From Lunularia cruciata (Eukaryota; Streptophyta; Marchantiopsida; Lunulariales; Lunulariaceae), in assembly GCA_948567375.1 (NCBI GenBank), contig OX419759.1, positions 38,282,593 to 38,346,592 on the forward strand: a stretch of DNA of 64,000 nucleotides, given 5' to 3'. The notes beneath the pieces are model-generated. The model searched no databases. It was not told the DNA's origin and saw nothing but the letters and a program-made list of their open reading frames with translations. The position numbers were made by a program, and so were the translations under genes. Below, in pieces: positions 1,922 through 22,822 of this stretch; position 1 is the first letter of the stretch, and each line of letters opens with the position of its first letter.

Positions 1922-1965
1922 GGATCAGTCAAAACCTCAGTTGGTGCACTAAAATGACTAAGAAC

Positions 1966-2400
1966 CTAGTCTAGGAACGAGTAAGCCGTCCCTTCACTAG
2001 ACTTGTAAGGAAGTGCCACCAACTCAATCCACATGGAGAAGTGCTCCACCGTCACCAAAATATACCAATGATGTCTCATGATCAACGATAAAGGTCCAAC
2101 AAATTCCAAACTCCAATGGTAACCCAATCCCATGATAGGTAATGGGTGTAACTGTGGCGTAGGAGCATTGAATGATGCTCTAACTTGGTCACAAACCACA
2201 CATCTAGCAAAAAACTGTTGTACCTTGGTCTGCATACCGTGCCACCAATAGTGACTTTGGAGTAAGCTATATGTACGCTTTACTCCAAAATGTCCTAGCT
2301 CCTCATGAGCATGAAGGACCAACTATAGTCTTTGAGATGGAAGTGGTACTACTCTCACCCTACCATCCTCCCATACACACAAAAGGTGTTTGCCCTCCAA
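1966..2400 (-). pseudogene. Ty3/gypsy integrase N-terminal half (element B)
   Basis: The HHCC zinc-binding domain is readable: the H..LGHFGVKRTYSLL stretch, then HYWWHGM, then CVVCDQVRA. The start of the catalytic core follows (GYHWSLEFVGPL, then VEHFSMWIELVALP). At the usual first catalytic Asp of the core this copy shows Glu (LEF), as element A does. The rest of the core is lost at the B truncation. Degenerate and not functional. Confidence 0.85.
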
Positions 2401-2418
2401 TCTGAACCGTCTGGCTTG

Positions 2419-4060
2419 CTAAAGAACACAATCTCTCTCCTTGGCCCTAACCTGTGCCACCCACAACACTAGTGCAAGATAGTTCATCACTAAGACATCA
2501 TCATGAATGTCTTGCTGGACTATACCAATATCTTCACTCTCTGGATCTATGACCTCAATAACTCCTCCTATATGCGTTGAGAGAGATACCACCAAAGTCT
2601 CAAAAAATATACAGAGAAAGGCTGATGTATGCCAACTTGGCACCATCTCCTCATCTATCTCACCATGCCAACATGCTCCGGTCTGATCCTGTTGGATGGG
2701 ACATGGGTTTCTACTCAACACATCTGTATCAAGGTTCACCAAGTCTATGAACAACCATGAAATCATACTCCTATAAAATTAGAGCCCATCATGCAAACTT
2801 CCCTAAAAGCTTATCAAACTCCATCAACCACTTTAGTGGCTGATGATCAGTGATGAGAGTGAAGGGGTTACCAAATAGGTAACATCAAAAATGTTCTATT
2901 GCCCAAATTGTTGCCAAGCACTCTCCCTCATATGAACTATACTTTGCCTTTGCTGAATTGTTGGAACGGCTAGCATAGGCCACCACAAACTCCTTCTCCT
3001 CATCATCATGCTGGGTGAGCACCGCTCCAAGCCCCAACATACTCCAATCAGTATGAATCTTAAATGGTCATCCTTTGATCGGTCTACTCAAAATAAGAGC
3101 AGATGTCAACCTCTCCTTGAGCTCTACAAAAGCTCTCTCCTGCTCATCTCTCCAACACCACTCTTGTGTAAGCTTGGTCAGCTTTGTCAAGGCCTTGGCA
3201 ATGGCACTAAATCCTCTAACATAGCGGTGATAGAAGTTTGCCAACCCAAGGAATGCTCACACTTTGCTCACATCTATAGCCCAAGGAATACGTGCAATAG
3301 CCTCCACCTTGGTCTGCTAAACACCAAGTCCTCTAGGGTAGATAGTGTGACCCAAATACTCAACCTGCTCATGGAAGAACCTACACTTCCCAAGATGTAA
3401 TTTGAGTCCATGAGATCTCAAACACCTCTCAACCTCTCAAACACCTCCAACACAATCTCTCATGCTCCACAATAGTGCTATAGACCAAAATGTCATCAAT
3501 ATAGCACCAAGCAAAATCCAATCCAACTAGGATCCTATCCATGACCCTTTAGAACTCGGCAAGAGCATTCTTTAGCCCAAAAGGTAAGAATCTCCATTGA
3601 TATAACACATCCTTACCGTGAGGATCAATAGCCCAGAATGCTATCTTGGACTTGTCTCCTCTTTGATTGGCAATTGATGATATCCCGCTCAAAGATCCAA
3701 AGTATTGAAGACCTTTGCATGCCCAATTGCATCAAAAATCTCCTCTATTGTAGGCATGGCGTATTGATCAGCCCTAGTCTATTGGTTGATAAGACGGTAA
3801 TCTCTACACATCTGCTTATTTGTGTGGTTTCCATGCATATCCTTCTTGGATGGCATCATTGTAGTTGATGCATACTCTCTATGTGAGATCTCTACCAAAC
3901 CAACCTCAAAAAGGTCACTACTCCAGCTTTGAATCAATGTACTCTCCATGTCATTATAGAGATAAGGATGTCAAAAAACTAGTGTATTGCTAGTTAGCTC
4001 AATCTGTATACCAGGGCCTTTTAGAGCACCCAAATCCTGCATTTTGAAGGCAAAACAACT
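2419..4060 (-). pseudogene. Reverse transcriptase and RNase H relic (element B)
   Basis: Antisense sequence matches the RT/RNase H of element A (6304-7860) along its whole length, but frames break repeatedly: stops, small indels, and a short duplication of 'ctctcaaacacctc' near 3420-3450. Only short open pieces remain, such as 2419-2766, which corresponds to the RNase H to integrase linker. It lies between the B integrase and the A insertion point. Confidence 0.85.
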
Positions 4061-4068
4061 CGTATAGT

Positions 4069-4174
4069 TGTTGTGCGTATATACATCGCTACACAACATA
4101 CATTGCTGTCAACATCATACACTATAAAAGCACAACTCACACATAAGTCATACATAGACTCTAAAGTGCCACAA
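4069..4174. repeat. 106-bp direct repeat X, outer copy
   Basis: Nearly identical to 4626-4732 (offset about 557 bp). The two copies flank the 3' LTR fragment of element A. The outer copy abuts the element B junction at 4067. It contains a plus-strand TATA-like CTATAAAAG (near 4122-4130). Confidence 0.8.
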
Positions 4175-4623
4175 TAATCAGATTGCTTAACACTCTCAAC
4201 TCAACTCAACTCAGATCAGTACTTGATCTGTCACTCTATAAACTGCCAACAACTGGGCACTGATTACAGTCAAGCCACACCCACTCAAGCATAGAGAATC
4301 CAGGTGACGCTCGCCGGCCTCTGTCCACCATAGCCAGGAACTCGAAGGCTCAACATCAGAGAAGTGAGCTCTCTGGAGCTCACTTCGAAACTATACCCCC
4401 TGGACTCGAGCTAGCCCTGAAACCCTAACGGTCCCGCTGATGGCAGACTCGCCGGTGCAAACGGTGCAAAGTGACGGTGGGCCCCACTGTGAAGTCAGTA
4501 CCCCGAACACGAAATCTAACCGTCGGAAATTAGTCCTTGAGAAACTGCTAGAATAACTCTAACTACCATCACTGGAACTCCAGTGTCCGAGCATCTAGAT
4601 GCGGAACTACAAATGGCGTGACA
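4175..4623 (-). repeat. Partial 3' LTR of element A (449 bp)
   Basis: Matches 13515-13963 of the 5' LTR over an equal 449 bp with only roughly a dozen substitutions by eye. The remaining 923 bp of the 5' LTR (12592-13514) are absent and replaced by repeat X. In the minus orientation it begins TGTCACGCC, the same 5' terminus as the LTRs at 13963 and 19961. Confidence 0.8.
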
Positions 4624-4625
4624 GC

Positions 4626-4732
4626 TGTCGTGCGTATATACATCGCTACACAACATACATCGCTGTCAACATCATACACTATAAAAGCACAACTCACACA
4701 TAAGTCATACATAGACTCTAAAGTGCCACAAT
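4626..4732. repeat. Direct repeat X, inner copy
   Basis: Second copy of the 106-bp repeat, lying between the LTR fragment and the polypurine tract. Differences from the outer copy are few (for example CGCTGTC versus TGCTGTC). Its presence between the polypurine tract and the LTR is not expected of a normal retroelement end. Confidence 0.8.
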
Positions 4733-4742
4733 TGCCCCCCTA
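4733..4742 (-). other. Candidate polypurine tract of element A
   Basis: The minus strand reads TAGGGGGGCA immediately upstream of repeat X. A G-rich purine run at the 3' end of the internal region is the usual plus-strand primer of LTR elements. Its distance from the LTR fragment (about 107 bp) is anomalous. Confidence 0.5.
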
Positions 4743-4899
4743 GCTGGCGGTTAGGTCCCTCTAACTCCAGATAGCCATCTATTCTAAGTATATGGTATAC
4801 CCTCTAATGGGCAAAGATCAGGAGGCCGGGTGCTATAGAGTCCCATCGTTAGTCGTCTGTTTGCAATCTATACCATATAAAGAATGAACTAGCTATAGG

Positions 4900-5232
4900 T
4901 CAAGTACATCTAGGACATAACCACTGTCCCTGAGGAACCACCGTGAGGGGAGGAGTCATACATGCCATATGCCATCCTCTCAAACAGCTATCACACACTA
5001 ACATAGTAGCAGCTCCACCAGAAGAGCCACATAACATACACCTCAAGCTTGCACGTACAAGTGCCAAGCTTGGGTCCATAGTACCATCAATGTTTGGAAG
5101 GTGGCATGGTGCACAATTGCGCACATGATCCTTCCAAACAACACCATCACATCCTTCTAACACAAGGACTCCAGATGGCAAAACCTCGTGCACTCTCAAG
5201 ATAGTGCGGCCTGTAGAAACATCAAGTGTCAT
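4900..5232 (-). pseudogene. Integrase C-terminal extension with PHD zinc finger (element A)
   Basis: A 110-residue open piece. Its first part (LDVSTGRTILRVHEVLPSG, then a conserved LEG and APCHLP) resembles the GPY/F-type tail that follows gypsy integrase cores. The last 46 residues form a PHD finger: CMLC, then CDSC, then HMAC, then W and CPRC, a Cys4-His-Cys3 pattern with the typical Trp two residues before the last Cys pair. PHD fingers commonly read the histone H3 tail, so this may direct integration as chromodomains do in chromoviruses. The frame is separated from the upstream integrase by a stop. No second copy is available because element B is truncated before this point. Confidence 0.8.
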
Positions 5233-6307
5233 CGATGCTGTCTGCTATAGATATACATAGTCACCTGGATGAAATCGACGGATCGAGGGTCTATAACCTC
5301 TCCTCGAATGGTAGCATAGCGTAAAGTATCTCTATGCTGAGCAATCGCCAAGTTCTCAAAGGCCATCAGCATCACTCTTCGAAAGATCTCTGCCCGCTGA
5401 GAACATGCGCTCATCCATACATTGGGTTCATCCAAGTCCAAAACTACAGTAGCATCTCGACAAATAGCTGCAGGTAAATCTGGATCTCATCCATAGAGTA
5501 GAAAGTATGGAGAGAAGGATGCTAAGGAGGCTTGCCGGCTGAACCAATAGCCCATGGCCAACCAAGGTAACTGGAGATCCCAATCTCCCAAGTGGCCTCT
5601 CTGCAAACCATTCTTTTGCAATCCTCTCTTCACCGTCTGAACCACTCTCTCTGCTAAGCCATCTGCCTCAGGGTGATCTCGGGATGTAGTACAATGATCA
5701 ATCAAAGCCTTGTCACACAAGACCTGAAACTCTCCCAAGAACTATGTACCCTGATCAGTCAAAACCTCAGTTGGCGCACCAAAATGACTAAGAACTTGAT
5801 CCAGGAACGAGTAAGCTGTCCCTTCACTAGACTTGTCAGGAAGTGCCACCAACTCAATCCACTTGGAGAAGTGCTCCACCATCACCAAAACATACCGATG
5901 ATGTCTCACAGTCAACGGTAAAGGTCCGGCGAATTCCAAACTCCAACGGTAACCCAATCCCATGATAGGTAATGGGTGTAACTATGGCGTAGGAGCATTG
6001 AATGATGCTCTAACTCGGTCACAAACCACACATCTGGCAACAAACTGCTGTACCTTGGTCTGCATACCGCGCCACCAATAATGACTCTAGAGTAAGCTAT
6101 ATGTACGCTTTACTCCAAAATGTCCTAGCTCCTCATGAGCATGACGGACCAAATGTGGTCTTTGTGATGGAAGTGGTACTACTCCCATACACGCAAAAGG
6201 TGTCTACCCTCCAATCTGAACCGTCTGGCTCGCTAAAGAACACGGTCTCTCTCCTTGGCCCCAACTATGCCACCCACAACACCAGTGTGAAGATAGTACA
6301 TCACTAA
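5229..6307 (-). pseudogene. Ty3/gypsy integrase (element A)
   Basis: The HHCC finger remnant (SHYWW, then CVVCDRVRA) is followed by the catalytic core: WSLEFAGPL, then VEHFSKWIELVALP, then LTDQGT, then TSRDHPEADGLAERVVQTVK. The second catalytic Asp (TDQG) and the final Glu (AER) are present, but the usual first Asp is Glu. In-frame stops follow APTP, TDQGT and FLLYG, so the core is split into pieces at 5487-5738 and 5742-5963. A further open piece (5229-5441) links to the PHD-bearing tail. Confidence 0.88.
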
Positions 6308-7860
6308 GACATCATCATGAATGTCTCGCTGAATTGTACCAATATCTTCCTCTCTGGATCTGTGACCTCAATAACTCCTCCTGTATGCGCTGAGAGAGAT
6401 ACCACCAAAGTCTCTGCAAATATACACAGAAAGGCCGATGCATGCCAACCTGGCACCATCTCCTCATCTGTCTCACCATGCCAACGTGCTCCGGTCTGAT
6501 CCTGCTGGCTGGGACATGGGTTTCTACTCAACCCATCTGCATCACGGTTCACCACTCCAGGTCTGTGAACAACCGTGAAATCATACTCCTGTAAAATCAG
6601 AGCCCATTGTGCAAGCTTCCTTGAAAGCTTGTCGGACTCCGTCAACCACTTCAGTGGCTGATGATCAGTGATGAGAGTGAAGGGGTTACCAAACAGGTAA
6701 CATCGGAAATGTGCTACTGCCCAAACTGCTGCCAAGCACTCTCCCTCATATGAACTATACTTCGCCTCTGCTGAATTGTTGGAGCGACTAGCATAGGCCA
6801 CCACAAACTCCTTCTCCTCATCATCATGTTGGGTGAGCACCGCTCCAAGCCCCAACATACTCCAATCAGTGTGAACTTGAAATGGTCGTCCCCTGATCGG
6901 TCTCCTCAAAATAGGAGCAGATGTCAACCTTTCCTTGAGCTCTACAAAAGCTCTCTCCTGCTCATCTCCCCAACACCACTCTTGTGTAAGCTTGGTCAGG
7001 TTTGTCAAGGCCTTGGCAATGGCACTAAATCCTCTAACATAGCGGCGATAGAAGTTCGCCAACCCAAGGAATGCTCGCACTTTGCTCACATCCGTAGGCC
7101 GAGGAATACGTGCAATAGCCTCCACCTTGGTCTGCTGAACACCAAGTCCTCCGGGGTAGATAGTGTGACCCAAATACTCAACCTGCTCATGGAAGAACCT
7201 ACACTTCCCAGGATGTAATTTGAGTCCATGAGATCTCAACCTCTCAAACACCTCCAACAACTGTCTCTCATGCTCCTCCACAGTAGTGCTATAAACCAAA
7301 ATGTCATCAATATAGCACCGAGAAAAATCCAATTCAGCTAGGATCCTATCCATGACCCTCTGGAACTCAACGGGAGCATTCTTCAACCCAAATGGTAAGA
7401 ACCTCCACTGATATAACACATCCTTGTCGTGAGGATCAATAACCCAAAATGCTGTCTTGGACTTATCTTCCTCCCTGATTGGCAACTGATGATATCCCGC
7501 TCGAAGATCCAAAGTACTGAAGACCTTTGCATGCCCAATCGCATCAAAAATCTCCTCCGGTGTAGGCATGGCATACCGATCAGCCCTGGTATGTTGGTTG
7601 ATAGGACGGTAATCTCCACACATCCGCCTATCTGTATAGTTTCCATGCATATCCTTCTTGGCTGGCATCACTGTCGCTGATGGATACTCTCCATGTGAAA
7701 TCTCCACCAAACCAGCCTCAAAAAGGTCAATACTCTGGCTCTGAATCAATGTCCTCTCCATCTCACTATATCAATAAGGACGTCGGAAAACTGGTGTGTC
7801 ACTAGTCAGCTCAATCCGTATACCAGGTCCCTTCAGAGCACCCAAATCCTTCATACTGAA
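6304..7860 (-). pseudogene. Reverse transcriptase and RNase H (element A)
   Basis: A 485-residue open frame (6304-7761) covers most of the enzyme. The RT shows CGDYRPINQ, FSTLDLRAGYHQL, LPFGLKNAP and the catalytic box RCYIDDILVY; the connection and RNase H regions show GLANFYRRYVRGFS, then VHTDWSMLGLGAVLTQ, then YSSYEGECLA and ITDHQPLKWL. The RT N-terminus (LKGPGIRIELTSD) lies upstream beyond one stop (near 7765-7860). RT copies element RNA into DNA and RNase H removes the template. This is the best preserved module of element A. Confidence 0.95.
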
Positions 7861-8054
7861 GGCAAAACAACTCGTGTGACTCCTCAAGAACCTCCAAACC
7901 CTCCGTCTTTCCTCTCCAGTAAGCTTGGGTCCAAGATCTGGCTCCCAAGTATCCTTTGTAACTGTAGTAGGAGTGGAAGACGTACTGACTGGCTGCTACA
8001 CTGGGCCCTTGGGAGCAATGGTGTCATGCTCCCGACCACTAGAGGTCCCAACCT

Positions 8055-8340
8055 CTATGTGAAAAACTCCATTCTGGCTGCAAGCTCCATATGTCCTCTA
8101 GCTGCATCCCATGTGGACCAAGGATGTAATCCAAGTAGCCCACGCTCACCTGGATGGACTCCAAGTAGACCACTCTTCCTAGTAGCTACTGGATGTGTCC
8201 CAAGAATACCATGTCCACTCGGTCCATCGCTCCCAGCATGTGCCTGAATCGTCTCGATAGGCACATGGCTCACAAGTGTCTGAATGGTGATGCCTATCAA
8301 GCGCATCCTACGCTGCTCTGCCAAACCAAGGCTCACAATC
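8055..8340 (-). pseudogene. Linker between methyltransferase and RT (element A)
   Basis: Carboxy-terminal continuation of the methyltransferase frame. It contains the near-repeat GLLGVHPGERGLLGLHPW, which is also present in element B (14088-14468), so it is a family feature rather than noise. No recognised domain. Confidence 0.6.
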
Positions 8341-9403
8341 CAGGTCAAACAGTTCAGGTCCATAGCCTGACCTAACACTTGACGCCTGGATGCCTCTGAC
8401 ACTGCTGGAACAGCGGTAATACCGGTGCGGAAACCCATTGCCCGCTCTCTCTCATCAGCATTGGGCTCCACCAATTGCTGTAACTGTGAGTCCCAAACAA
8501 GTCCAAGTCCTCCCTCTCGAAAAGCATGAGAGCCTAGGAAACTCATGAGTGTAGGAAATGCAGCTCTAGGCTGTCCAACTAGGTTCACCACTGCCATAGG
8601 TGACCTATCAGCCACTACCACTGTCTGAGACTGACGCCCAACATCCAAGATATCATCAACAAGAATGTGGTCTAGTTGCTGAATCCCATCATAACTACGC
8701 TGTAGAACCTCTCTGGGTAAAAGGTTCGTCCACCAAAGACAAAGACGATGAGCCCATGATCCCACTCTGGCTGCATCTAACAATACAGCAGGTCCCATCC
8801 AAGAATGGACATGATGTGTATCGCTACCACTCTAGTGCGAGAATCACCCAACAAAGGAACGTTCTCCAAAAGGTAAGCTGGAGAAACAGACTGATGAACC
8901 TGGAGATGTCGTAATATCCATAACATCTCCCAAAACACACCAAAACGAGGATCCCAAAGACCCAAACCGCGGCCCGCACGTGTATGTCCCTGACATGGCC
9001 ATCCAGAAATCACCAAGTGGATAGGCCCATGTCTCTCTAGGTCATGCGCCCCTAGTAAGGAAATGTCTCATGGTAAGGCCTTCTGGTAACCTCTAACTGC
9101 TGACATCGGTAATAACTCTGGATACCGATAGGCCAAGTGTGCCACATGATGTAGAGAGACTCGCCTAGCAGTCTCATCTCTCTCTACATACAAGTACCTC
9201 TGTACTCGGATACCCGCATGTAACACCGCAGCTAGTCCGGTGCTGATCCCACCAAACAACTCCAATAGGCATATCCCCTCTACTGGGTACTGCCAAGCAA
9301 TGAGTGTGGTATCCAGAGGTGTCAAAGCAATTGCCTCTGGAGGCTCATCCTCACACTCATCCCCTGATGGTACGAAGGCTCCACTCCAAGCCTGCTGCAC
9401 CAA
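8341..9403 (-). pseudogene. DNA cytosine-5 methyltransferase domain, DNMT3/DRM-like (element A)
   Basis: Three pieces carry the C5-methyltransferase motifs in order. 9068-9403 holds the AdoMet-binding motif I (LLELFGGISTGLAAVLHAG, then VERDETARRVSLHH). 8777-9016 holds motif IV with the catalytic Pro-Cys-Gln (GWPCQG, codons 8990-8998) and motif VI Glu-Asn-Val (LLENV, near 8858-8866). 8341-8798 holds the AHR-W-NL segment (VLLDAARV, AHRLCLWWTNLL), the target-recognition region and the C-terminal motif (EPNADERERAMGF, then RRQVLGQAMDLN). Motif order I-IV-VI-X and the AHR/NL and LGQAMD-type tail resemble DNMT3/DRM. It lies between protease and RT in one transcriptional unit. It is broken by a TGA after KALP (near 9068) and a frameshift near 8790; catalytic residues remain. 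The enzyme would methylate cytosine in DNA, perhaps that of the element. Confidence 0.87.
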
Positions 9404-9418
9404 CTGATCTGCATGCTG

Positions 9419-10432
9419 CTACAATGCCTCCTCTGAACTCCACAATGGAACATCCAAGGTGGATGGAACAATCCCACTTGTACTCCATAGCCGAGTGATC
9501 TCCTCTAGTACTGGAGTATCCTCTGCATGGGCGTTCCCCTCCAACAAGTCACCAGGCCAAGTAACTGCACCGCTGAAAGCTAAAACTGATGCTGCCATGG
9601 TCCCGGACTGTAGTGAGCCAAGACTGCCACTACTGAAGCGTACTGGTAGGCGACATACCCGTCCCTCACCAGACTGCCAACCAGGTCTATAAGAGGCTGT
9701 CTCCTCCCAATAGTCAATGCTGAAACCCATAAGGTATAACACTGCTCCCCCAACTAGCACATCGTATGACTCAGCTATCGTCGCAATAGCATGAGCTCTC
9801 ACCACCGAGCTATCAGTCGGATGACCAGGCTGAACCTGGACAACAAGCTCCCCACGTGTGATGTACTATATCAAACCACCACCAAGAGATGTCTGGATCT
9901 GAAATAGACACCTCTCCACATCGGTCTTTCGTAACTCCAGACCGACAACTGCAGCCTTCCCCAACATAAGGGGCTGCGGACCAGAGTCTAACAAGACTCT
10001 CTATGGTGTATAGACCTTCCCTGAAGGTCCCACTAAACGAAAGATCCCCCTCTGGTTATCCAATAGGACAACACCAGGTGTAAACCGCGCTCTCTCAAAG
10101 GCCGGTCTAGCTGGCAACTCCTCCAGTCTAGCCGCTACTGCCTGCCATAAACCACTGGTCGCTGAACGGATCCCATGCTCCTCAACCAAGTCAGCTCCAC
10201 TACCAACCACCTCTGCTCTAGTAGTAGGAACTGCACCATCCCTACTCTCACACAACGTGGCAGCCAACCGGAACACTGGGGCTGGGTCAACTCCCAATGT
10301 AAACATGTCACTGGCTGAAAATAAAGGATGCCACATAATCAGCTGAGCCGCCCCCAACATCATGCTAGACTCAGTCTGTGTAGTAGCAGATGGCTGACTA
10401 GCAGGTAGTCCATCATGTACTCCACCTACCAC
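9419..10432 (-). pseudogene. Aspartic protease region (element A)
   Basis: After the gag frames, 10001-10432 leads through DNQRGIFRLVGPSGKVYTP, a stop, then RVLLDSGPQPLMLGKAAVVG, which carries the Asp-Ser-Gly active-site triad of retroviral-type proteases. A second hydrophobic segment (YDVLVGGAVLYLMGFSIDYWE, near 9680-9760) matches the flap to second-strand part of such proteases. Stops occur after VYTP and near 9870. The same order is present in element B (15490-16350). The protease would process the gag-pol polyprotein. Confidence 0.7.
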
Positions 10433-10530
10433 ACCTGCACGGGACGTCTAAGAACCATGGATGTTGTTTGCAATGCCTCAAATAGCGTGAAAGACTGGGG
10501 AAGTCTGACCTGTCTCCCAACCTCTCCTCT

Positions 10531-12228
10531 CTATGGGTCCAACTCCACTGATGCTCCTCTAGGCTTTGGAGCACGTACTGCACTCCTAGTCACTACTGTA
10601 GATTCATCCACCTGTGCTGCTCCGCACATGAAGTCCAAAGCATCTCTATCACCAGCATATGAGGTGGAAGCCTCAGCACCCAAATCTGATCTCCTCTGAG
10701 CAATAGCTATACTAGCCAATCTTTGCTCCAACTGCTCAATCCGAGTAGCCATAGCTGTGTCAGAAGTAAGGGCAGGTACTGCACCCCTACTAGGAGTAGA
10801 TCCTCTACCACCACCTCTACCACCTCGTCCTCCATGAACTGGAGCTCCTCTACTACCTGCCATAGCAGCCCTACCACTCCGTAACTCCGGGTGTAGGTCA
10901 AAACACCGGTCACTAGTGTGACCAAATCTGTGGCAATGCTCACACTGCCTCTGTGCTGGCTGTGATGCACCAGAGGTATCAGGTGCGCTGCCCTGAGTAC
11001 ACTCTCTCCTATGGTGAGGTCCACCACAAGTCCAACAAGCAACACCACCACTCACTGGCTGCTGCTGACCCGAAAATGAGGGTAAGGGTCTAACTCCACT
11101 AGGCCCTCCACTCGCTCCATAGGATCTGGGCTGTCCACCCTGTCCTCAAAAACCAACTGGGCGTGGTGCACTTTGCTGCACTCTAGAAGAAGTCACAACC
11201 GTGGATGAGGTCTCTCTACCAAATCCAGCTGTCACTACTCTCTCCTCCACCATGTTGAGCTCAATACGCTCAGCCAAACCAAAGACTACTGCCAAAGTGG
11301 GCAAAGTAGCCTGCAACAACGTAGCATCACGAACTCTACGTCGCAACTCCCTGTCCAGTATCCCATACCAAAACTGGACTGCCTGGGCCTCAATAACTCC
11401 TTGAGTGAAACTGATCAGCCGCCTCATGCAAGTGTATGCCTCGCGTAGGCTCTCTCCAGCCTTCCGCTGGAACTCCTGCAAGCTCCTCAGCTTGTCAGTC
11501 CGTACTCCCTGGTAGTTCTACCTCAAACATCAGAAGAACTCCACCATGGGGTTAAACCCCGGTACCATACCACCTCCTGCAGCGGTACCTCCACTCGTAG
11601 TAGCACTATCTCCAGCTAGTGCACCTCCACTAGCTCCACCAACACTACTTGAGCTAGAACTCGTAGGTACAGCTGACCTACTCCCGGCCACCAAACCTGA
11701 AGTGATGGAGACATAGTGTGGAGACCAATACTGTCTCCATAACTCAATCTCCTCCAAATGAGCTCTCCTGAACTCATGGTAATCATCCATCGGTGGACCC
11801 TCCAAGTGCTGAAACAACTCCTTCCATGCCATGAAGGGTGTGAACAAAGTCGGGTTCCGCATCTGCTGCAGATCACACCAACTATCAAACTCCTGGATGA
11901 AGTCATCCAACTCAATGGTACCCACTGTACCAGAGTAACGCCTAGGGCCTTTGGAGGCCCCATAAATCTAGTCCATGTCCCACAACAACGGTGCGGACAC
12001 ACCAAGTGCACTCTCAACTGAATCAGCTCCTGTGTCAAACTCCAACTTAGAGTCAATCTCCTCCCTCACTGGGACCTGAGATACAGGCTGATACCAAGCA
12101 CCACTCCGAGTAAACCCACTATGTAATGCAGGGCTAACTCCTCTGGAATCTCCAAAGAACTCCGTCGTGACCATGTAACTGCAACAGCAAACCCGAACCA
12201 CCAACTGCAACCGCAAGTACTCCACCAA
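10531..12228 (-). pseudogene. gag-like capsid/nucleocapsid region (element A)
   Basis: Successive frames 11530-11925, 11146-11481 and 10531-11055 give a gag order: a capsid-like helical region (LDDFIQEFDSWCDLQQ, FQRKAGESLREAYT, FWYGILDRELRRRV), a Ser/Gly-rich spacer, and a nucleocapsid part with two zinc knuckles, CWTCGGPHHRREC and CEHCHRFGHTSDRC. The second is a perfect C-x2-C-x4-H-x4-C. A Gly/Arg-rich tail (GGRGGRGGGRG) follows, typical of nucleic-acid binding. The leader frame 11968-12228 probably belongs to the N-terminus. Several stops interrupt it. Confidence 0.8.
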
Positions 12229-12570
12229 GTGCCAACACCACCGTGTGCCAACACCAACTAAACACCACCCACTAATGTAACTCTAACCGATATAACTACA
12301 CTAGGGGAAGGGAAACCTGTAACCTGCCATCATAACACGCACTCTCACGGTCTGCAGGTCATCACTTCCTGCCTCACCGGAGAGAAACACAAGTAGTCTG
12401 ACTGGTCATCACTCCAGCCTCACCACCGAGAGCACACCAGAGCACCAACGCTCAAAAGTCAAGGCACCTCATACAAATGTGGTGCACAAACAAGAAGCAG
12501 AGAATGGAGGGGATCCAATCACAAGAAATCTAAACGAAAACCCTCCATCTCATAACACAACACGGGACTG

Positions 12571-12582
12571 ACTCTGCCACCA
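12571..12582 (-). other. Candidate primer binding site of element A
   Basis: The minus strand reads TGGTGGCAGAGT starting 9 bp after the LTR end. It resembles plant primer sites (TGGTATCAGAGC for initiator Met; tRNA-Leu types also begin TGGTG), but I cannot name the tRNA. Element B has the closely similar TGGTGGCAAAGT at the equivalent place (18619-18630). Confidence 0.5.
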
Positions 12583-12591
12583 TTTGGCATT

Positions 12592-13963
12592 TGACATAAG
12601 AGTAGTTCGTATCTAAGTCCTAAGCTACCAGGATCACTAAGAATGGGATCAAATTGCCTCTCCTAGCCAAAGCTACATGTGTATAGATAACAGTGGCACA
12701 GTCACTATGACAACAAGTGAGGGTGGACCAGTTGGCTAGGGCACCAGTTGGCTAGGGCACCAGTCTAGGAACAAGAGATCTAGGGGTCAAACCCTGTTGT
12801 GCACAATCTAGCAAGAAAGGCAGATTTTGCCAACCAATGACCAAGATCTACACTAAACTAGCTAGCCTCACGCTAGCAAGCTGGCTTGCTGGCCCTTCTA
12901 GGCCTTCGTAGCCTCTCATAGCCCACAGCCCTATTCCTTGAAGCCTCGAAATGCCGAAATTCAGCCAAATGAGGCCTTTCTTGTTGCCACTTCGAACCTC
13001 CTCCAAAATTGGTGAAACTTCTCCAAATCTACGAAACTCCTCCAAACTAGCAAAACTTCTCCAAATCTGGCCAAACAGCAAAACTCCTCCAATTTTGGCC
13101 CAAAATCTGATGTAAACCCTAAAGATGGATGTCCGCCAAATCCCCCGCTAACTTTCCACTCGAGCCAAATTGACAAAACGGGTTTTTCCAAATCACAATT
13201 TCATGAGAAGAGCTTTCCAACTCCACCTTCAATTTCACTTTCTGAGCCCAACTCGCAACAAATTGGTCTTGCCTTCAACTCCTGAGCTCAAAATCACAAC
13301 ATTGCTCGAAAATTGCTCCTTCTTTGCTCAAAATTTGGCCAGCGCTTCCACACACTGTCCGCCTAACTGCCAAATCTGCATCAACTAAACAAGCTTCTGC
13401 ACACTAGGGAAACACAGAACCTGAATCAAGCTACCACGATCCACCGAGCTTGGAGATACCACCAAAACTCAACGTTCTTGCACCCGATTTCCCCCTGACT
13501 TCACTTCTTTGATGTAATCAGATTGCTTAACACTCTCAACTCAACTCAACTCAGATCAGTACTTGATCTGTCACTCTATAAACTGCCAACAACTGGGCAC
13601 TGATTACAGTCAAGCCACACCCACTCAAGCATAGAGAATCCAGGTGACGCTCGCCGGCCTCTGTCCACCATAGCCAGGAACTCGAAGGCTCAACATCAGA
13701 GAAGTGAGCTCTTTGGAGCTCACTTTGAAACTATACCCCCTGGACTCGAGCTAGCCCTAAAACCCTAACGGTCCCGCTGACGGCACACTTGACAGTGCAA
13801 ACGGTGCAAAGTGATGGTGGGCCCCACCGTGAAGTCAGTACCCCAAACACAAAATCTAACCGTCGGAAAGTAGTCCCTAAGAAACTGCTAGAATAACTCT
13901 AACTACCATCACTGGAACTCCAGTGTCCGAGCATCTAGATGAGGAACTACAAATGGCGTGACA
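12592..13963 (-). repeat. 5' LTR of element A (1372 bp)
   Basis: Read on the plus strand it starts TGACATAAGAG and ends GGCGTGACA, so both strands have TG...CA ends. It is homologous to 18640-19961 throughout, and its 13515-13963 part is repeated at 4175-4623. It includes a short tandem duplication of 'ccagttggctagggca' near 12730-12761 and a run of A/C-rich degenerate repeats (12960-13100). The boundary at 13963 abuts element B sequence. Confidence 0.75.
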
Positions 13964-15290
13964 TAGCTCCTCAAGAACCTCCAAACCCTATGTCTTTCCT
14001 CTCCAGTAAGCTTGGGTCCAAGCTTTGGCTCTCAAGTATCCTCTATAACTATTGCAAGAGTGGAAGACATATTAACTGGCTGCTACACTAGGCCCTTAGG
14101 AGAAGTAGTGTCATGCCCCCGACCACTAGAGGTCCTAACCTCTGTGTGAAAAAATCCCTCCACTCTTGGTGCAAGCTCCACTGTCCTCTAGCTACATTCC
14201 AAGTGGACCAAGGGTGTAATCCAAGTAGCCCCCGCTCACCTGGATGGACTCCAAGTAGACCACTCTCCCTAGTAGCTACTGGTTGTGTCCCAAGAATACT
14301 ATGTCCACTCAATCCATCCCTCCCAACATGTGCCTGAATCATCTTGATAGGCACATGGCTCACAAGTGTTTGAATGGTGATGCCTATCAAGTGCATCCTA
14401 TGCTGCTCTACCAAGCCAAGGCTCACAATCCAAGTCAAATAGTTCAAGTCCAGAGCTTGACCTAACACCTAATGTCTAGTGCCTCTAACATTGTTGGAAC
14501 AATGGTAATATTGGTGCAAAAACCCATCACCCGCTCTCTCTCATCAGCATTGGGCTCCACCAACTGTATTATTGTGAGTCGCAAACCAGTCCAGGTCCTC
14601 CTTCTCAAAAAGCATGAGAGCCTAGGAAACTCATGAATGTGAGAAATGCGGCTCTAGGCTATCTAACTAGGTTCACCATTGCCATAGGTGACCTATATCC
14701 TACTACCCCCGTTTGAGATTGACGCCCAACATCCAAGATGTCATCAACAAGGATGTGGTCAAGTTGTTGAATCCCATCATAAGCACATTGTAAAACCTCT
14801 CTAGGTAAGAGGTTCATCCACCAAAGATAAAGACAATGAGCCTGTAATCCTACTTTGGCTGCATCTAACAATACAATAGGTCTCACCAAGAAAGACCTAA
14901 TGTGTACTCGCCACCACTTGGGTACAAGAATCACCCATGAAAGGAATGTTCTCCAAAATGTAAGCTGGAGAAATGGACTAATGAACCTAGAGATATTGTA
15001 GTATCCATCTCCCAAAGAAAAAACATACCAGAACAAGGCTCCTAAAGACCCAAACCTTGGCCAACACGTGCATGTCCTTGACATGCCCATCAAGAAATTA
15101 CCAAGTGAACATGCCCATGTCTCTCTATATCATGCACCCCAAGTAAGGAAATGTCTACTGGTAGGGCCTTCTGGTAACCTTTGACTGTTGACATCACTAA
15201 TAACTCAAGATACCGGTAGGCCAAGTGTGCCACATGATGTAGAGAGACTTGCCTAGCAGTCTCATCTCTCTCCACATACAAGTACCTCTA
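13964..15290 (-). pseudogene. DNA cytosine-5 methyltransferase relic (element B)
   Basis: Collinear with the methyltransferase of element A. Readable parts are VERDETARQVSLHHVAHLAYRY followed uninterrupted by KALPVDISLLG (15090-15281), VLLDAAKVG with AHCLYLWWMNLLPREVL (14659-15093), and MLGQALDLNYLTWIVSLGL (14088-14468). The motif IV Pro-Cys-Gln of copy A reads Ala-Cys-Gln here, and the preceding residue is a TGA stop, so this copy is dead. Its presence at the same position between protease and RT shows that the module belongs to the family and is not a one-off insertion in A. Confidence 0.85.
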
Positions 15291-15489
15291 TATTTGTATA
15301 CCTGCCTATAATATCACAACTAGTCCAATGCTAATCCCATCAAACAACTCCAATAGACATATCCACTCTACTAGATATTGCCAAGCAATGAGTGTGGTAT
15401 CCAGAGGTGTCAAAGTAATTGACTTTGGAGGCTCATACTCACACTCATCTCATGATGGTATGAAGGCTCCACTCCAAGCCTATTGCACC

Positions 15490-16350
15490 AACTAATCTGC
15501 ATGATGCTGCAATGCTTCCTCTAAACTCCACAATGGAACATCCAAGCTAGATGGAACAATTCCACTTGTACTCCAAATCCAAGTGATCTCCTTTGATACT
15601 AGAGTATCCTCTGTATGGGCGTTCCCCTCCAACAAGTCACCATGCCAAGTAACTACACCACTAAAGGTTGAAACTGATGTTGCCATGGTGAGCCAAGATT
15701 GCCACTATTGAAGTGTATTGGTAGGTGACATACCCATTTGTCACCAGACTGCCAACCTAGTTTACAAGAGGCTGTCTCCTCCCAATAGTCAATGCTGAAA
15801 CCCATTGAGTATAACACTGCTCCCCCAACTAGCACATCATATGACTTAGCTATTGTTGCAATAACCTAAGCTCTTACCACCAAGTTATCAATTGGATGAC
15901 CAGGCTGAACTTAGACAACAAGCTCCTCATGTGTGATGTACTATGTTGACCACCACCTAGAGATGTTTGGATCTGAAATGGACACCTCTCCACATCGGTC
16001 TTCTGTAACTCCAGACCGACTACTGCAACCGTCCCCAACATAAGGGGCTATGCACTAGAGTCTAACAAGACTCTCTATGGTGTATATACCTTCCCTAAAG
16101 GTCCCACCAAACAGAAAACCCTCCTCTGGTTATCCAATAGGACAAAACTAGGTGTGAACCACACTCTCTCAAAGGCGGGTCTAGTTGGCAACTCCTCCAG
16201 TCTAGCCGTTGTTGCCTGCCATAAACCACTTGTTGCTGAACAGATCCCATGCTCCTCAACCAAGTTAGCTCCACTATCAACCACCTCTACTTTAGTAGTA
16301 GGAACTATATCATCCCTACTCTCACAAAGCATAGCAGCCAACCAAAACAC
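15490..16350 (-). pseudogene. Protease region relic (element B)
   Basis: Pieces 16075-16350, 15653-15835 and 15492-15686 correspond to the element A protease, including the DNQRRVFCLVGPLGKVYTP leader and LVGGAVLYSMGFSIDYWEE. More stops and substitutions than copy A. Confidence 0.7.
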
Positions 16351-16479
16351 CTAGGCTTGATCAACTCCCAATGTAAACATGTCACTAGTTGAAAACAAAG
16401 GGCACCACATAATCAACTAAGTAGCCTCCAACATCATGCTAGACTCAGTTTGTGTAGTAGCAGGTAGTTGACTAACAAG

Positions 16480-18340
16480 TAGTTTGTCATGCATGCCATC
16501 ACCACCTACCACACTTACATTGGGACGTGTAAGAGCCATGGATGCTATCTGCAATGCCTCAGATAGCTTGAAAGATTGGGGACGTCTGACCTATCTTGCA
16601 ACCTCTCCTCTTGGTGGGTCCAACTCCACTGATGCTCCTCTAGGCTTTGGAGCACATACTACACTCCTAATCACTCCTATAGATGCATCCACCTGTGCTG
16701 CTCCGCACATGAAGTCCAAAGTATCTCTATCACTAGCATATGAGGTGGAAGCCTTAGCACCCGAAGCTAATCTCTTCTAAGCAATGGCCATACTAGCCAA
16801 TCTCTGCTCCAAGTGCTAAATCCAAGTAGCCATAATTGTATCAAAAGTAAGGGCAGGTACCACACCTCTACTAGGTGTAGATCCTCTACCACCTCATCCT
16901 CCATGAACTGGAGCTCCTCTACTACTCCGTAACTCCAAGTGTAGGTCAAAGCATTGGTCACTAGTGTGACCAAATCTATGGCAATGCTCACATTGCCTCT
17001 GTGCTGGTTGTGATGCACCAGAGGTATCAGGTCCACTACCCTAAGTACACTCTCTCCTATGGTGAGGTCCACCACAAGTTCAACAAGCAACATCATTACT
17101 CACTGGCTGCTATTGATCCAAAAGTGAAGGTAAGGGTCTAACTATAGTAGGCCCTCCACTCGTTCCATAGGACCTAGGCTGTCCACCTTGTCCTTGAAAA
17201 CCAACTAGATGTGGTGCACTCTACTGCACTCTATAAGAAGTCACAACTATGGATGAGGTCTCCCTATCAAATCTAGATATCACCACTCTCTCTTCCACCA
17301 TGTTCAACTCAATACGCTCAGCTAAACCAAAGACCATTGCCAAAGTAGGCAAAGTAGCCTATAACAACATAGCATCATGAACTCTATGTTGCAATTCCTT
17401 GTCAAGTATGCCATACTAAAATTGGACTGCCTGGGCCTCAATAGCTCCTTGAGTGAAACTGATCAGCCACCTCATGCGAGTGTATGCCTTGCATAGGCTC
17501 TCTCCAACCTTCCTCTAGAACTCCTGCAAGCTCCTCAGCTTATCAATCCGCACTCCTTGGTAGTTTTACCTCAAACACTGGAAGAACTCCACCATGGAGT
17601 TAAACCCTGGTACCACACTACCTCCCATGGTGGTAACTCTATTTGTAGGAGCATTATCTTGAGCTAGTGCACCACCATTAGCTCCACCAAAACTACTTGA
17701 GCTAGAACTCATGAGTACAGCCAATCTACTCCTGGCAACCAAGCCTGAAAAATTGGAGACATAGTTTGGAGACCAATATTGTCTCCATAACTCAATCTCC
17801 TCCAAATGAGCTGTCCTAAACTCATAGTAGTTGTCCATTGGCGGACCTTCCAAATGCTAAAACAACCCCTTCCATGCCATGAAGGGTATAAACAAAGTTG
17901 GGTTTCACATTTGCTACAGATCACACAAACTATCAAACTCTTGGATGAAGTCATCCAAGTCAATAGTACCCACTGTACCTGAGTAATGCCTCGGGCCTTT
18001 GGAGGCCCCATAAATCTCATCCATGTCCCACAACAATGGACACGCTAAGTGCACTCTCAACTAAATCAGCTCCTATGTCAAACTACAACTCAGATTCAAT
18101 CTCCTCCCTCACTGGGACTTGAGATACAGGCTAATATTGAGCGCCACTTTGAGTAAAACCTCTATGTAATACAAGGCTAACTCCTCTAGAATCCCCAAAG
18201 AACTCCATCGTGACAAAGTAACTACAACTGCAATCGCAAACCGGAACCACAAATTGCAATCGCAAATCGCAACCGCAAGTACCCTACCAAGTGCCAATAC
18301 CCATGAAACACCACCCACTAATATAGTTGTAACCAAGATA
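16480..18340 (-). pseudogene. gag relic (element B)
   Basis: Collinear with the element A gag. Frames 17566-17853 (capsid-like, LEEIELWRQYWSPNYVS) and 16767-17096 remain, with the zinc-knuckle region recognisable only across frames near 16960-17095. A deletion removes some 50 bp relative to A in the Gly/Arg-rich part (near 16890-16930). Confidence 0.75.
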
Positions 18341-18618
18341 ATTACACTAGGAGAAAGGGAAACCTATAACCTACCATCACAACACATACTCTCATGGTTT
18401 GCAAGTCATCACTTCCTTGTCTCATCGGAGAGAAACAAAGGTAGTCTGACTGGTCATTACTCTAGCCTCACTACCAAGAGCACACCAGAGCGCTAATGCT
18501 CAAAAGTCATGGCACCTCACACAACCGTGGTGCACATACAAGAAATAGAGAATAGAAGGAGTCCAATCACAAGAAATCTAAACAAAAACTCTCCATCTCA
18601 TAAAGCAACATGAGATTG

Positions 18619-18630
18619 ACTTTGCCACCA
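18619..18630 (-). other. Candidate primer binding site of element B
   Basis: Equivalent of 12571-12582 in element A; reads TGGTGGCAAAGT on the minus strand. Confidence 0.45.
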
Positions 18631-18639
18631 TTTGGCATT

Positions 18640-19961
18640 TGACATAAGAGAAGTTTGTATGTACGTCCTAAGCTACCAGAATCACCAAGAATGAGATCAA
18701 ATTACCTCTCCTAGCCAAAGCTACAAGTGTATAGATAACAATGGACCAGTCACTAGGACAACAAGTGAGGGTGGACCAATTGGCTAGGGCACCAGTTTAG
18801 GAACAAGAGATCTAGGGGTCAAACCTTGTTGTGCATAATCTAGCAGGATGGGCAGATTTTGCCAAACATTGACCAAGATCTACTCTAAACTAGCTAGCCT
18901 CACACCAGCAAGCTATCTTACTGGCCCTTCTAGGCCTTTGTAGCCTCTCATAGCCCACAACCCTATGCTTCAAAATGTTGAAATTTAGCCAAATGAGGCC
19001 TTTCTTCTTACTAGTTTGAACCTCCTCCAAATCTGGCAAAAATTCCACCAACTTGGGCCAAAATTTGCAACTTTAAAACTCCTCTAAATCTAGCCAAAAT
19101 TTGACATAAACCCTAAATTTGGCTGATAGCCAAATCCTCCGCTAACTCTCTACTTGAGCCAAATTGAATTAACAAGTCTTTCCAAATAAATAATTCACAA
19201 GAATAGGTTCCAAACTCCACTTTCAATTTTAGTTTCTGAGCCCAACTCGTAACAAATTGGTCTTGCCTTCAGTTCTTGAGCTCAAAATCACAACCACTAC
19301 TCTAAAATTATTATTTCTTTGCTCAAAATTGGCCAACACTTCTGCACACCGTCTCTTTCTTATTGCCAAATCTGTATCAAGCAACGAGCTTCTGCACACA
19401 AGTGAAAACTTGAACTTTGATTGAGCTAGCAACAATCCACTGCACTTGGAGATACCACCAACACTCACAATTTCTGCACCAAATGTTCCCCTTGACTTCA
19501 CTTATCTTATGTTATTAGATTGTTTACAACTCTCAAATCAACTCAACTCAAATCAGTACTTGATTTGTCACTCTATAAATTGCTAACAACTGGGCACTGA
19601 TTACAATCAAACCATACACACTCTAGCTAAGAGAATCTAGGTGACGCTCACTGGACTCTGTCCACCATAGCTAGGAACTCAAAGGCTCAACATCAGAGAA
19701 GTGAGCTCTCTGGAGTTGCACTTCAAAAGTACCCCCCTAGACTTGAGCTAGGTCTGAAACCCTAACTGTACCACTAACGGCACACTCGACGGTGCAAATG
19801 GTGCAAAGTGACAATGGGTCCCACCGTGAAGTTAGTACCCCAAACACAAAATCTAACCATCAAAAAGTAGTCTATGGGAAATTGCTGAAACATCTCTAAC
19901 TACTATCATTGCAACTCTAGTGTCCGAGCAATCTAGATGAGACAATACAAATGGCATGATA
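18640..19961 (-). repeat. 5' LTR of element B (about 1322 bp)
   Basis: Homologous to 12592-13963 end to end, from TGACATAAGAG to GGCATGATA (TGACA mutated to TGATA). It is visibly more diverged from the A LTRs than the two A LTR pieces are from each other, in keeping with B being the older host of the A insertion. Confidence 0.8.
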
Positions 19962-22822
19962 GCGAAGTATGCGGCTTTTAGAAGAAAGCTTTGGAGAAGC
20001 TTCTCGATTAGCTTAGCTTGCACTCTAAGAAAATAGTTTTTAGGAAGCTTCTTGGGAAGCTTCTCAAGAGCCTTGTATGCTTCTCTATAAATACCAAAGC
20101 CAAAATTCATACTAGGTATTTGGAGTTTCCTTCATTCTAGAGTTCCAATGTGATCTTTCACTTTGATCTTCTCTTTGCTTAGTCTTTTACATTGATATCA
20201 GAGCAAGAATGGGATGGATGGAATTTATGGATCACCAAATTCATTTCTACTAAACCATTGGGATTTTTGTGTCCATATATTATCCAAATATCATTTCATG
20301 TAGTACATTATCTCACAAAATGGTACCCAAATATTGTGAATTTTATGAATATCATCACCTTGTTTGATAAACCCTTGGTACTTCTGATTGTAACTTATGG
20401 AGAGAGGTGGACGTATTGCATCTAAATGTTAACTTAGATAAATTTTAGGTAGTTTGATAGAGTAGTAGCTATGGAAACAATACATGAAGTTATCATTACC
20501 ATGCAATAACAAATTGAGCACCTTACTTGATTGTTGGAAGAACAAGATCATCAATGAAAAAAGCACGTAGCGAGAGCACCATTTCAAGAAGGAGAAGAGT
20601 GAACCAAATTTCCAAAACCCAATTATTTGAAGGCAAGAACCTCCAAATGCAATGGAGCATTTTGTGTTTGATTGTGAATTTTGAAGTTACAAATCTTCAG
20701 GACAAATGGAGACAAATTCTCTTGACTTCAAACCAATTGGATAGAGTGGGAAAGCTATGTGGACGATTCCAAATGGAGTGAGATGAATGGCAATTTGTTG
20801 CACCAATCTCAAAATAAGAAGAATTCAAGAGTGTAATAATTGGGCAATTCCAAGCTATAGATACCACAAAAGTTGCATAAAATAGGTTGGTAGAATTGAA
20901 GCAGATTGATTTTGTAAGAAGCTACATCACTCAATTCCAAAATACCATAATGCAAATTATAGATATATTAGAAGGTGAAGCTCTAGATTGATATGTAAGG
21001 ACTTGAAGTCACACACCAAATTGGACGTGACCATGCAAGAGCCATGCGCAAACACTTGGAGGAAGCCATGCAATTGGTTGAGCACTTTGATTCCCTAGTT
21101 GTGACAACTTAGTCTTGACCTTGGCCTTCATAGAACATGCACTCACATTACACATGGATGGAGGATCCAACACCAATGGAGATTGATGCCATCTAGTGGA
21201 AACCACTTGGTCCTAGAAATAGGGAAAGATTATGAAAAAATAGTGGTTGCTTTTATTATCAGCAAACTGGGCATCATATTGTGGAATGTCCACTCAAGAA
21301 TGGATGACCTTGACAAATCACCCAAATGGAGTTTGTGAAATATGATGATCAAAGAAATGAGAATCCTAGTAGGAGGACTCAAGCCACCTATTAGGAACTT
21401 GATTGGCTCAATGGGATTGAAAGCTCATACTATGCAAGTTTGCTTCATTTGCAAGGTACAATATCTTATCATGGTTGTAAGATTTTGGTTGATTTTGGAA
21501 GTTCAAAGATTTACATGTCCGTGCATTTAGCAAGAGAATTAAGTATTCCTATCAAACCATTAATTAGAAATAGATTGATTATGGTGGATGGTAGATAGTG
21601 TTCTACATTCCATACTCCACATCTCATTACATTCAATATTGAGAAAGAATATTTGGAGTGTATGAGGTTTGTAGTGGCACCTCTACACTATGATGTCATT
21701 TTGGGTTTTCCTTACCTTGAACATCATAAGGTTCAATTTGATTGGACTTGACAACAAATTCAAGTACAACACCAAGGTATAAATTACCAATTAGGTTGTT
21801 TAGCATCTTTGAATAAGGCACAAGACCTAAGAACTATCAATCCCAAGATGAGAAATTTGTTAGTAAAGCAACCAAGAGTAAGCTTTGGAAGAAGATAACC
21901 CTATTTTTGCAATGTACATCAAGGCAATTGTACATGGAGAATTTGAGGAAGGAGAGAAGCCTCATCAAGTAATGGTAGATCAAATAGTTCATGAGTTTGC
22001 AAAAGTGTTACTCTTTGATCATAATATGCCCTTCAAGATTGCGTTATTACAAGGAAGTACTCCAATGAGGAGACCAATCTATTGGCTCTCACCAAAGGAG
22101 TTGGACAAGCTTCAAACAACACTAATGGAGTTGTTGGAGAAGGATTTCATATGATATAGTACATCTTCTTGCGGAACAATGGTATTATCTATTCCAAAGA
22201 AGGATGGAGGACTTTGCTTCTATATTGATCATTGCGCACTCAATAAACAAATAGTGAAGAATCCATACTCCTTGCCTTGAATTGATGACTTTCTAGATCA
22301 ATTGAGTGGAGCATGCAACTTCTCCAAGTTGGATCTCTAAAACCACTATTGGCATATTCCCACTGACAGAGAGGATTCACATTGAAAAAGATTACCTTTT
22401 GCACAAGGTATGGGCATTTTGAATGGAGAGTTCTACCTTTTGGGCTCACTAATGATGCAATAGCCTTCATGGATCAAATGCATTGGATATTGGATGGGCT
22501 ATTGGATTGGTACATGGTGGTGTTCTTGATGATATTTAATCTATAGCAAGACGCAAGTAGAACACACAAATCACATGCAAGAAGTCCTAAGACGATTGTG
22601 TCAATGAAAGTTTTAATGCAAGAATTCAAAATGCACCTTTTGGTAGAAGGAAGTCACCTTCTTGGGTCACAAGATCTCATAAGAAGAGATCAAGATAGAA
22701 GAAGAGAAAATCAAGACCATTATTGGTTGGCCTACTTCAAAGGACACCACAAAAGTGTAGACATTTAATGGATTGCCAAGTTTTTACCAATGATTCATCC
22801 AATATTATGCTCATGTGGCCGT
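19962..22822 (+). mobile_element. Element E1, part 1: chromovirus relic (LTR fragment, gag, protease, RT)
   Basis: A partial LTR (19962-20191, lacking its first half) carries HindIII-type GAAGCTTC repeats and the TATA segment CTATAAATACC. The primer site TTGATATCAGAGC follows (20192-20204), then decayed gag, protease and RT collinear with element C (40634-43390). It breaks at 22818-22822 (GCCGT), where E2 is inserted, and resumes at 28363. Confidence 0.85.
20460..22817 (+). pseudogene. gag-protease-RT relic (element E1)
   Basis: Homologous to element C gag and pol: zinc-knuckle remnant (near 21240-21300, CFYYQQTGHHIVECP), protease region (near 21480-21560, ILVDFGSSKIYMS with the Asp-Ser-Gly active site changed to Asp-Phe-Gly) and RT (21885-22790). 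Many stops and indels; RT motifs such as the FLDD box are frame-shifted (near 22520-22545). Not functional. Confidence 0.8.

Follow-up and report, generated by a model that had tools for sequence, protein, structure and literature searches.

Why should a transposon carry an enzyme of the type that silences transposons? The question was left open in 2018, when only algal and dinoflagellate examples had been described (PMC5890265), and it is raised again by a 64,000-bp stretch of the Lunularia cruciata (Marchantiopsida) genome (assembly GCA_948567375.1, contig OX419759.1, positions 38,282,593–38,346,592), hereafter the window. The minus strand of the window contains a decayed copy, copy A, of an abundant Ty3/gypsy long terminal repeat (LTR) retrotransposon family in which a DNMT3-like C5-methyltransferase is a regular domain; we regard this identity and anatomy as practically certain. 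Our best overall explanation, which combines the identity of the element with a translation scheme and a role in DNA methylation, is held with moderate confidence, and its parts are graded separately below.

An earlier note, made from the sequence alone, had reported C5-methyltransferase motifs I, IV (WPCQG) and VI (LLENV) and a DNMT3-like C-terminus, in that order, and all were found on the minus strand within 8341–9403. Translation places the motifs in linear order across window positions 8310–9277, split over two frames. Frame 0 contains ELFGGISTGLAAVLHAG, WPCQG and LLENV, and frame 2 contains a motif VIII similar to AHR.R..W.N, followed by ERERAMGF and RRQVLGQAMDLN. The methyltransferase (DNMT) of copy A is disrupted by a TGA at 9068–9070 and a frame change near 8831. 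The Pfam check proposed in the note gave a significant match, with DNA_methylase (PF00145) exceeding its gathering score on the unbroken piece 8780–9067 (E=5.2e-6). Searched singly against Pfam, the other two pieces gave no match, and the frame-2 piece alone returned a single unrelated PDB match (E=0.32). A family profile, constructed from the sequences of relatives, recognizes frame 0 (stop read as X) with E=1e-70 over profile positions 1–162 of 327 and frame 2 with E=4e-80 over positions 153–327, so the two frames together span the whole profile and define the domain limits. The Pfam and family-profile E-values rule out a chance motif match. The placement within a gypsy element also held, with a protease-like segment upstream and Pfam RVT_1 and RT_RNaseH matches to a reverse transcriptase (RT) downstream. 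The features of the element and of its surroundings, all on the minus strand, are as follows.

4069..13963 (9,895 bp), minus strand: element copy A, Ty3/gypsy, with split direct repeats and TG...CA ends (self-comparison, junction reading)
13515..13963, minus strand: terminal repeat A1 (5'), 96% identical to 4175–4623 (self-comparison)
10534..11967, minus strand: gag region in several frames and pieces (open reading frames; two CCHC-like knuckles, by eye, in 10534–11145)
9680..10000, minus strand: aspartic-protease-like segment (LLDSGPQPL...YDVLVGG; DSG...YDVLVG), read from the translation by eye
8310..9277, minus strand: DNMT3-like C5-methyltransferase domain with one stop and one frame change (PF00145, family profile)
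7990..7998, minus strand: UAG-CAG-CCA separating DNMT and RT, a type I leaky-stop context (sequence reading; consensus in PMC3542737)
6307..7770, minus strand: reverse transcriptase and RNase H, open over 488 aa (RVT_1 E=3.3e-32, RT_RNaseH E=1.3e-35)
5232..5981, minus strand: integrase core (rve), interrupted by stops (PF00665 E=4.7e-9 on 5745–5981)
4906..5040, minus strand: PHD finger at the integrase C-terminus (PF00628 E=2.5e-11; best PDB match CHD4, 2.9e-15)
4623..4732, minus strand: repeat B1, 97% identical to 4066–4175 (self-comparison)
4175..4623, minus strand: repeat A2 (self-comparison)
4069..4175, minus strand: repeat B2, the 3' end of the element (self-comparison, junction reading)
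13964..19963, minus strand: older member of the family, 5' half, interrupted by the insertion of copy A (82–85% identity, self-comparison)
1923..4068, minus strand: older member of the family, 3' half, with the RT region (89% identity to 5753–7875; junction reading)

Copy A sits inserted within an older copy of its own family. It is flanked by GCTA and ACTA, which form a 4-bp target duplication mismatched at one position, and its A1 and A2 repeats differ at 16 of 449 sites. The older copy retains fragmented DNMT remnants at about 14400–15365, identified by family-profile matches, and the same TAG-CAG-CCA as copy A. Neither the gag pieces nor the protease-like segment of the window matched Pfam; three relatives (P0171, P0169 and P0196) have Asp_protease_2 matches below the cut-off. 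A chromodomain was not among the Pfam matches to the PHD region (4903–5244).

The family is abundant in the host genome, which was searched over 565.8 Mb in 74 contigs. Exact matches to a 26-base word from repeat B number 4,607 (2,287 and 2,320 on the two strands), compared with none for the reversed control. By our own count, the first 100 places listed comprise 33 pairs about 540–565 bp apart, the spacing expected of a B-A-B arrangement, and 34 singles. A PF00145 search yielded at least 123 scored matches among 2,161 first-look candidates; one locus (L005), which matches the family profile at only 8e-4, is probably an ordinary host methyltransferase. Forty DNMT stretches were hand-picked from a listing of the best-scoring PF00145 candidates, and the sample therefore leans towards well-kept copies. 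The intact copies that the earlier note had proposed to look for exist: in 12 of the 40 sampled loci the domain runs without interruption along almost the full profile, and in 28 it does not. Adding one further locus (L009) gives 13 uninterrupted domains among the 46 loci L006–L051, of which L006 and L007 lack a family match. Twelve of these 13 satisfy all five tested motif patterns, and L046 fails the one for motif VIII.

A second sample was approached from the RT. All 20 stretches upstream of RT matches contain the DNMT (in L077 it covers only 230 of 323 residues), and seven of them have an open frame with motifs I, IV and X. These 20 were chosen from 88 listed matches, the best of 53,613 RT candidates, so they do not bear on whether more divergent RTs lack a DNMT. 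Together with the 4,607 copies of the B word, they rule out the artefact of a single odd copy. Twelve 10-kb stretches (L052–L063), selected among copies with long frames, share a constant order of gag piece, DNMT, RT, integrase and PHD finger, with the RT of L053 in two pieces. The gag piece upstream of the DNMT is the counterpart of window 10534–11145 and is partial in L058. The first open reading frame (gag-protease-DNMT) reaches 1,428 aa and the second (RT to PHD) 1,037 aa.

B-A-B is present in 11 of the 12 stretches (L058 lacks it), and a long A1 lies within nine, with only a 74-base piece in L053 and none in L060 or L058. Reading of the flanks identified a 4-bp target duplication adjoining TGTCACG...GACA in eight of nine evaluable copies, L055 being the one without. 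These duplications identify A1 and B2 as the termini of the integrated element and indicate insertion by a DDE integrase. The inner B1–A2 junction, ACGACA-GC-TGTCACG, is exact in six of 11 stretches and altered in the other five; it looks as if two ends had been joined (GACA-GC-TGTC, a 10-bp palindrome). By eye, no canonical tRNA primer site was seen after A1. We also observed that repeats in A-coding-B-A-B order are paired with a DDE integrase both in the window (4069–4732, 13515–13963) and in the host stretches L052–L063. In L058, the gag is shortened beside another gypsy element and the copy ends at B1 without A2 and B2, as a chimera or a truncated insertion. CpG observed/expected ratios are 0.39–0.48 in the 12 host stretches, 0.42 in copy A and 0.17 in the older copy; because they vary likewise elsewhere in the window (0.53, 0.54, 0.20), CpG content is not diagnostic.

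How would the DNMT and the RT half be expressed from one RNA? The two are separated by TAG-CAG-CCA in all 12 10-kb stretches and in both window copies. This conforms to UAG-CAR-YYA, the type I readthrough consensus of plant viruses with its tobamovirus-type context CARYYA (PMC3542737). A stop occurs at this site in all 44 loci L008–L051 (43 TAG, 1 TAA), and TAG-CAG-CCA is exact in 38; eight of the 44 are copies already represented among the 10-kb stretches. Among the 42 loci with a WPCQ or WLCQ motif, the stop shares the motif frame in 39 and is out of frame in three; the TAG site is the first stop 3' of the motif in 13. Genome-wide, 1,012 sites fit the flanks with any codon in the middle, and the first 100 listed contain, by our count, 95 TAG, 4 TAA and 1 TAT. 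In five stretches (L054, L055, L056, L058 and L060), an in-frame open frame directly continues past the TAG codon. From this context we infer ribosome readthrough at the UAG-CAG-CCA of the family.

The position of the DNMT upstream of a leaky stop supplies a concrete idea of dose and packaging. We consider it likely that the element is translated mostly as Gag-protease-DNMT, with a minority readthrough product. Ribosomes would mostly terminate at the UAG, so that Gag-protease-DNMT would be made at Gag-like levels, and readthrough by the minority would add the RT–integrase half. The DNMT could then be packaged alongside the element RNA and methylate double-stranded cDNA, or the DNA of the landing site, de novo; such cDNA or landing-site methylation is a plausible role, somewhat short of probable. 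A new copy would arrive pre-methylated, concealed from foreign-DNA sensing or in a silent state tolerated by the host. The nearest solved relatives of the PHD finger in the PDB include CHD4, KDM5 and ATXR5, several of whose type read unmodified H3K4, and the finger probably directs insertion to nucleosomes with a given state of the H3 tail.

The closest described element is KnitGypsy-Dnmt3 of Klebsormidium nitens, which has gypsy domains, a DNMT3-related domain without the DRM rearrangement and a DIRS-like repeat order (PMC5890265). The precedent named in the earlier note, DNMT capture in Klebsormidium and dinoflagellates (de Mendoza 2018), is confirmed by this paper. The Lunularia family likewise has a Ty3/gypsy RT, RNase H and rve integrase, A-coding-B-A-B repeats, and a DNMT that retains key catalytic residues inside the polyprotein, here in the gag-protease-DNMT frame upstream of the UAG (12 of 12 stretches, 20 of 20 RT-anchored copies). 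Since it shares the gypsy domains, the DIRS-like repeat order and a DNMT3-related domain that lacks the DRM rearrangement, the family fits the KnitGypsy-Dnmt3 kind as judged from its published description. It differs from that description in its bryophyte relatives, the leaky UAG after the DNMT, the PHD finger and the 4-bp duplications. The main text of PMC5890265 mentions neither a PHD finger nor readthrough, although a figure could show more, and that text does not refer to Marchantia, to Sphagnum or to any other moss or liverwort. SymbioDIRS-Dnmt3 and SymbioLINE-Dnmt of Symbiodinium are also retrotransposon-borne DNMTs, the former with DIRS-type repeats; their machinery is a tyrosine recombinase or that of a LINE, whereas the present family has a DDE integrase and target duplications (PMC5890265). 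A DIRS-type tyrosine recombinase element is ruled out by the rve integrase in the window and relatives and by the duplications in eight of nine copies. Chromoviruses resemble the family in having a reader domain at the integrase C-terminus, which in their case is a chromodomain instead of a PHD finger.

The DNMT3-like assignment made in the earlier note was borne out by profile and fold comparison of the relatives against the PDB, in which DNMT3A and DNMT3B are the best matches and DNMT2-type tRNA methyltransferases are far weaker (1.3e-4). With this comparison and the significant Pfam match, neither of the two outcomes that the note had named as refuting its reading occurred. The tree, which includes a single DNMT3A fragment on a very long branch, leaves the place of the family among methyltransferases unsettled. 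The vertebrate DNMT3A/DNMT3B catalytic domain is alike in fold, motif order and motif VIII (AHR.R..W.N). Identity to the listed DNMT3 rows is 22–26%, and motif IV is PCQ in the family and PCN in the vertebrate domain. The DNMT3A/DNMT3B catalytic domain is partnered by PWWP or ADD domains, and neither was seen in the family. A bacterial or phage source for the captured domain, in place of a eukaryotic DNMT3, would account for a motif IV (WPCQGH) that agrees with a methyltransferase on a virus contig (L001) where DNMT3A has SPCNDL, and the tree does not place DNMT3A reliably. Motif VIII, however, agrees with DNMT3A and not with the QRRRRV of L001, and DNMT3 is far ahead by both profile and fold; we consider such an origin unlikely.

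Relatives were collected by protein searches (the first 69 matches), a profile search (8,000 candidates scored, 295 matches, the best 120 examined) and a long-protein search (36). Named matches come from Calypogeia fissa, Marchantia polymorpha, Marchantia paleacea, Sphagnum troendelagicum and Sphagnum tenellum, from one metagenome-assembled genome (MAG) called Obscuribacterales (P0073) and, weakly, from Closterium sp. NIES-53. In a 49-row tree, from which Closterium is absent, the window and host copies fall in a 19-member clade (support 100/100) that includes all eight liverwort and moss sequences. The searches of viral contigs gave one distant methyltransferase and those of prokaryote genomes two loci. 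One of the relatives, L002, is a contig assigned to a cyanobacterial MAG; it encodes gag-protease-DNMT (1,162 aa, start cut), TAG-CAA-TCA and RT to PHD (1,047 aa). Its RT is 66% identical to that of the window, compared with about 37% for two other gypsy elements; its DNMT is 52% identical to a host copy and its PHD region 63%. It also contains CACGACAGCTGTCACG, identical over 16 bases to the B–A junction of the host family. The shared junction, stop context, domain order and DNMT indicate that termini, stop, order and enzyme travel together in the host and L002 lineages. The two ends of the L002 contig overlap with perfect identity over 127 bases, which leaves a unit of 9,158 bp; these ends, noted for L002/L091, probably mark a misbinned eukaryotic repeat, the other possibility being a true circle. 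A prokaryotic origin of the family, as the filing of L002 and P0073 might suggest, was set aside: we judge misbinned eukaryotic contigs to be more likely, because L002 encodes gag-protease-DNMT-RT-integrase.

More distantly, P0191, P0192, P0194 and P0195 are gypsy-type proteins with a DNMT, an integrase and a PHD finger. P0191 and P0195 have the order RT-RNase H-DNMT-integrase-PHD, so either the position of the DNMT varies across the wider group or the domain was acquired more than once. In P0184, P0188 and P0189, motif IV reads WECQ, not WPCQ, and P0184 and P0188 also have RT domains.

We propose, tentatively and as a reading nearly in balance with its negation, that one gypsy lineage has kept a DNMT3-type enzyme, a leaky UAG, a PHD-bearing integrase and its termini together since before bryophytes and at least one other lineage split, and is still abundant in a land-plant genome; its particle would be a methylating compartment with enzyme at Gag dose, and its copies would be pre-methylated. 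If a single old lineage is the true history, land plants as a whole have not lost transposon-borne methylases. According to a 2019 paper, land plants 'such as tracheophytes' lack methylase-encoding transposons (PMC6338049). Bryophytes would depart from the broader reference to land plants and leave the claim on tracheophytes untouched. DNMT3s in streptophyte retrotransposons were mentioned in general terms after the 2018 paper (PMC12344493), and our literature search of open-licence papers found no bryophyte report of DNMT-carrying elements. Within those papers, three features are apparently new: the occurrence in bryophytes, a leaky stop that follows the DNMT, and a PHD finger. The Marchantia polymorpha relative P0180 (Mp_4g09160, 1278 aa) brings the question of transposon DNMTs into land plants, and because it has an open frame and all motifs in a species with good genetics, the question is directly testable.

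Several observations weigh against the proposal that the family enzyme methylates its own DNA. Copy A itself, with its stop and frame change, is incapable of making the enzyme. Distant relatives (35–44% identical) often change motif IV, with EC for PC in P0191, P0194 and P0195. The K. nitens gypsy DNMT was inactive in yeast, a result its authors call inconclusive (PMC5890265). The RNA fold 3' of the UAG comes from one run per sequence on two sequences, without a control. DNMT dN/dS against the older copy is 0.47–0.55, with wrong-frame controls, from one pair only, of 0.33 and 0.68; as it is not below these controls, selection on the DNMT in this host is not shown. The last point, the altered motif IV and the 28 of 40 sampled copies lacking an uninterrupted domain would suit a passenger DNMT, or one that serves solely for binding or structure. 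Against this reading stand the retention of the domain in all 20 RT-anchored copies and the persistence of motifs I, IV, VI, VIII, IX and X in two relatives about 52% identical, L002 and P0094, and we regard it as quite improbable.

Other substrates than the element's own DNA can also be envisaged. The enzyme might act in trans on the host, methylating competing elements, defence genes or the whole genome; a repeat word present 4,607 times and the placement before the stop would allow much enzyme, and stray methylation has been proposed for Symbiodinium (PMC5890265). K. nitens, with a similar element, nevertheless has a plant-like methylome, though fewer copies (PMC5890265), and the present data contain no link between the enzyme and host targets, so action in trans appears unlikely. 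Methylation of the element RNA, helping packaging or translation, was raised for the SymbioLINE DNMTs (PMC5890265) and would suit a DNMT placed on the Gag side, beside an RNA-binding protein. Profile and fold point instead to DNA methyltransferases of the DNMT3 group, far ahead of the DNMT2 type, and we rate an RNA substrate as slightly less likely than action in trans. Methylation of cDNA or landing site remains our preferred role for the enzyme, at the tentative strength given above.

Rates and decay patterns were compared among the host copies. Among 16 distinct uninterrupted DNMT domains, Ka/Ks has a median of 0.42 and a pooled value of 0.46, where the criterion used for KnitGypsy-Dnmt3 was below 0.2. 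The RT gives dN/dS of 0.31–0.32, without a wrong-frame control. The comparison with the L002 DNMT gives dN of 0.45, with dS saturated at 3.2; that the motifs are kept at 52% identity speaks in favour of the proposed role. In 31 broken loci there are 56 in-frame stops, of which 47 differ from one intact copy by a lone C-to-T or G-to-A change, and frame-shifting indels occur in three of the 31. These changes fit deamination of methylated cytosine, whichever enzyme methylated it. One DNMT codon carries a stop in 12 of the 31 broken loci (within L008–L051), which could reflect a mutational hot spot or the spread in trans of a truncated subfamily.

Elsewhere in the window, a further gypsy element occupies positions 41043–45495, its C-terminus resembling a chromodomain by eye, and related repeats recur between about 20 and 50 kb of the window. 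The family RT is about 37% identical to that of the window's other gypsy.
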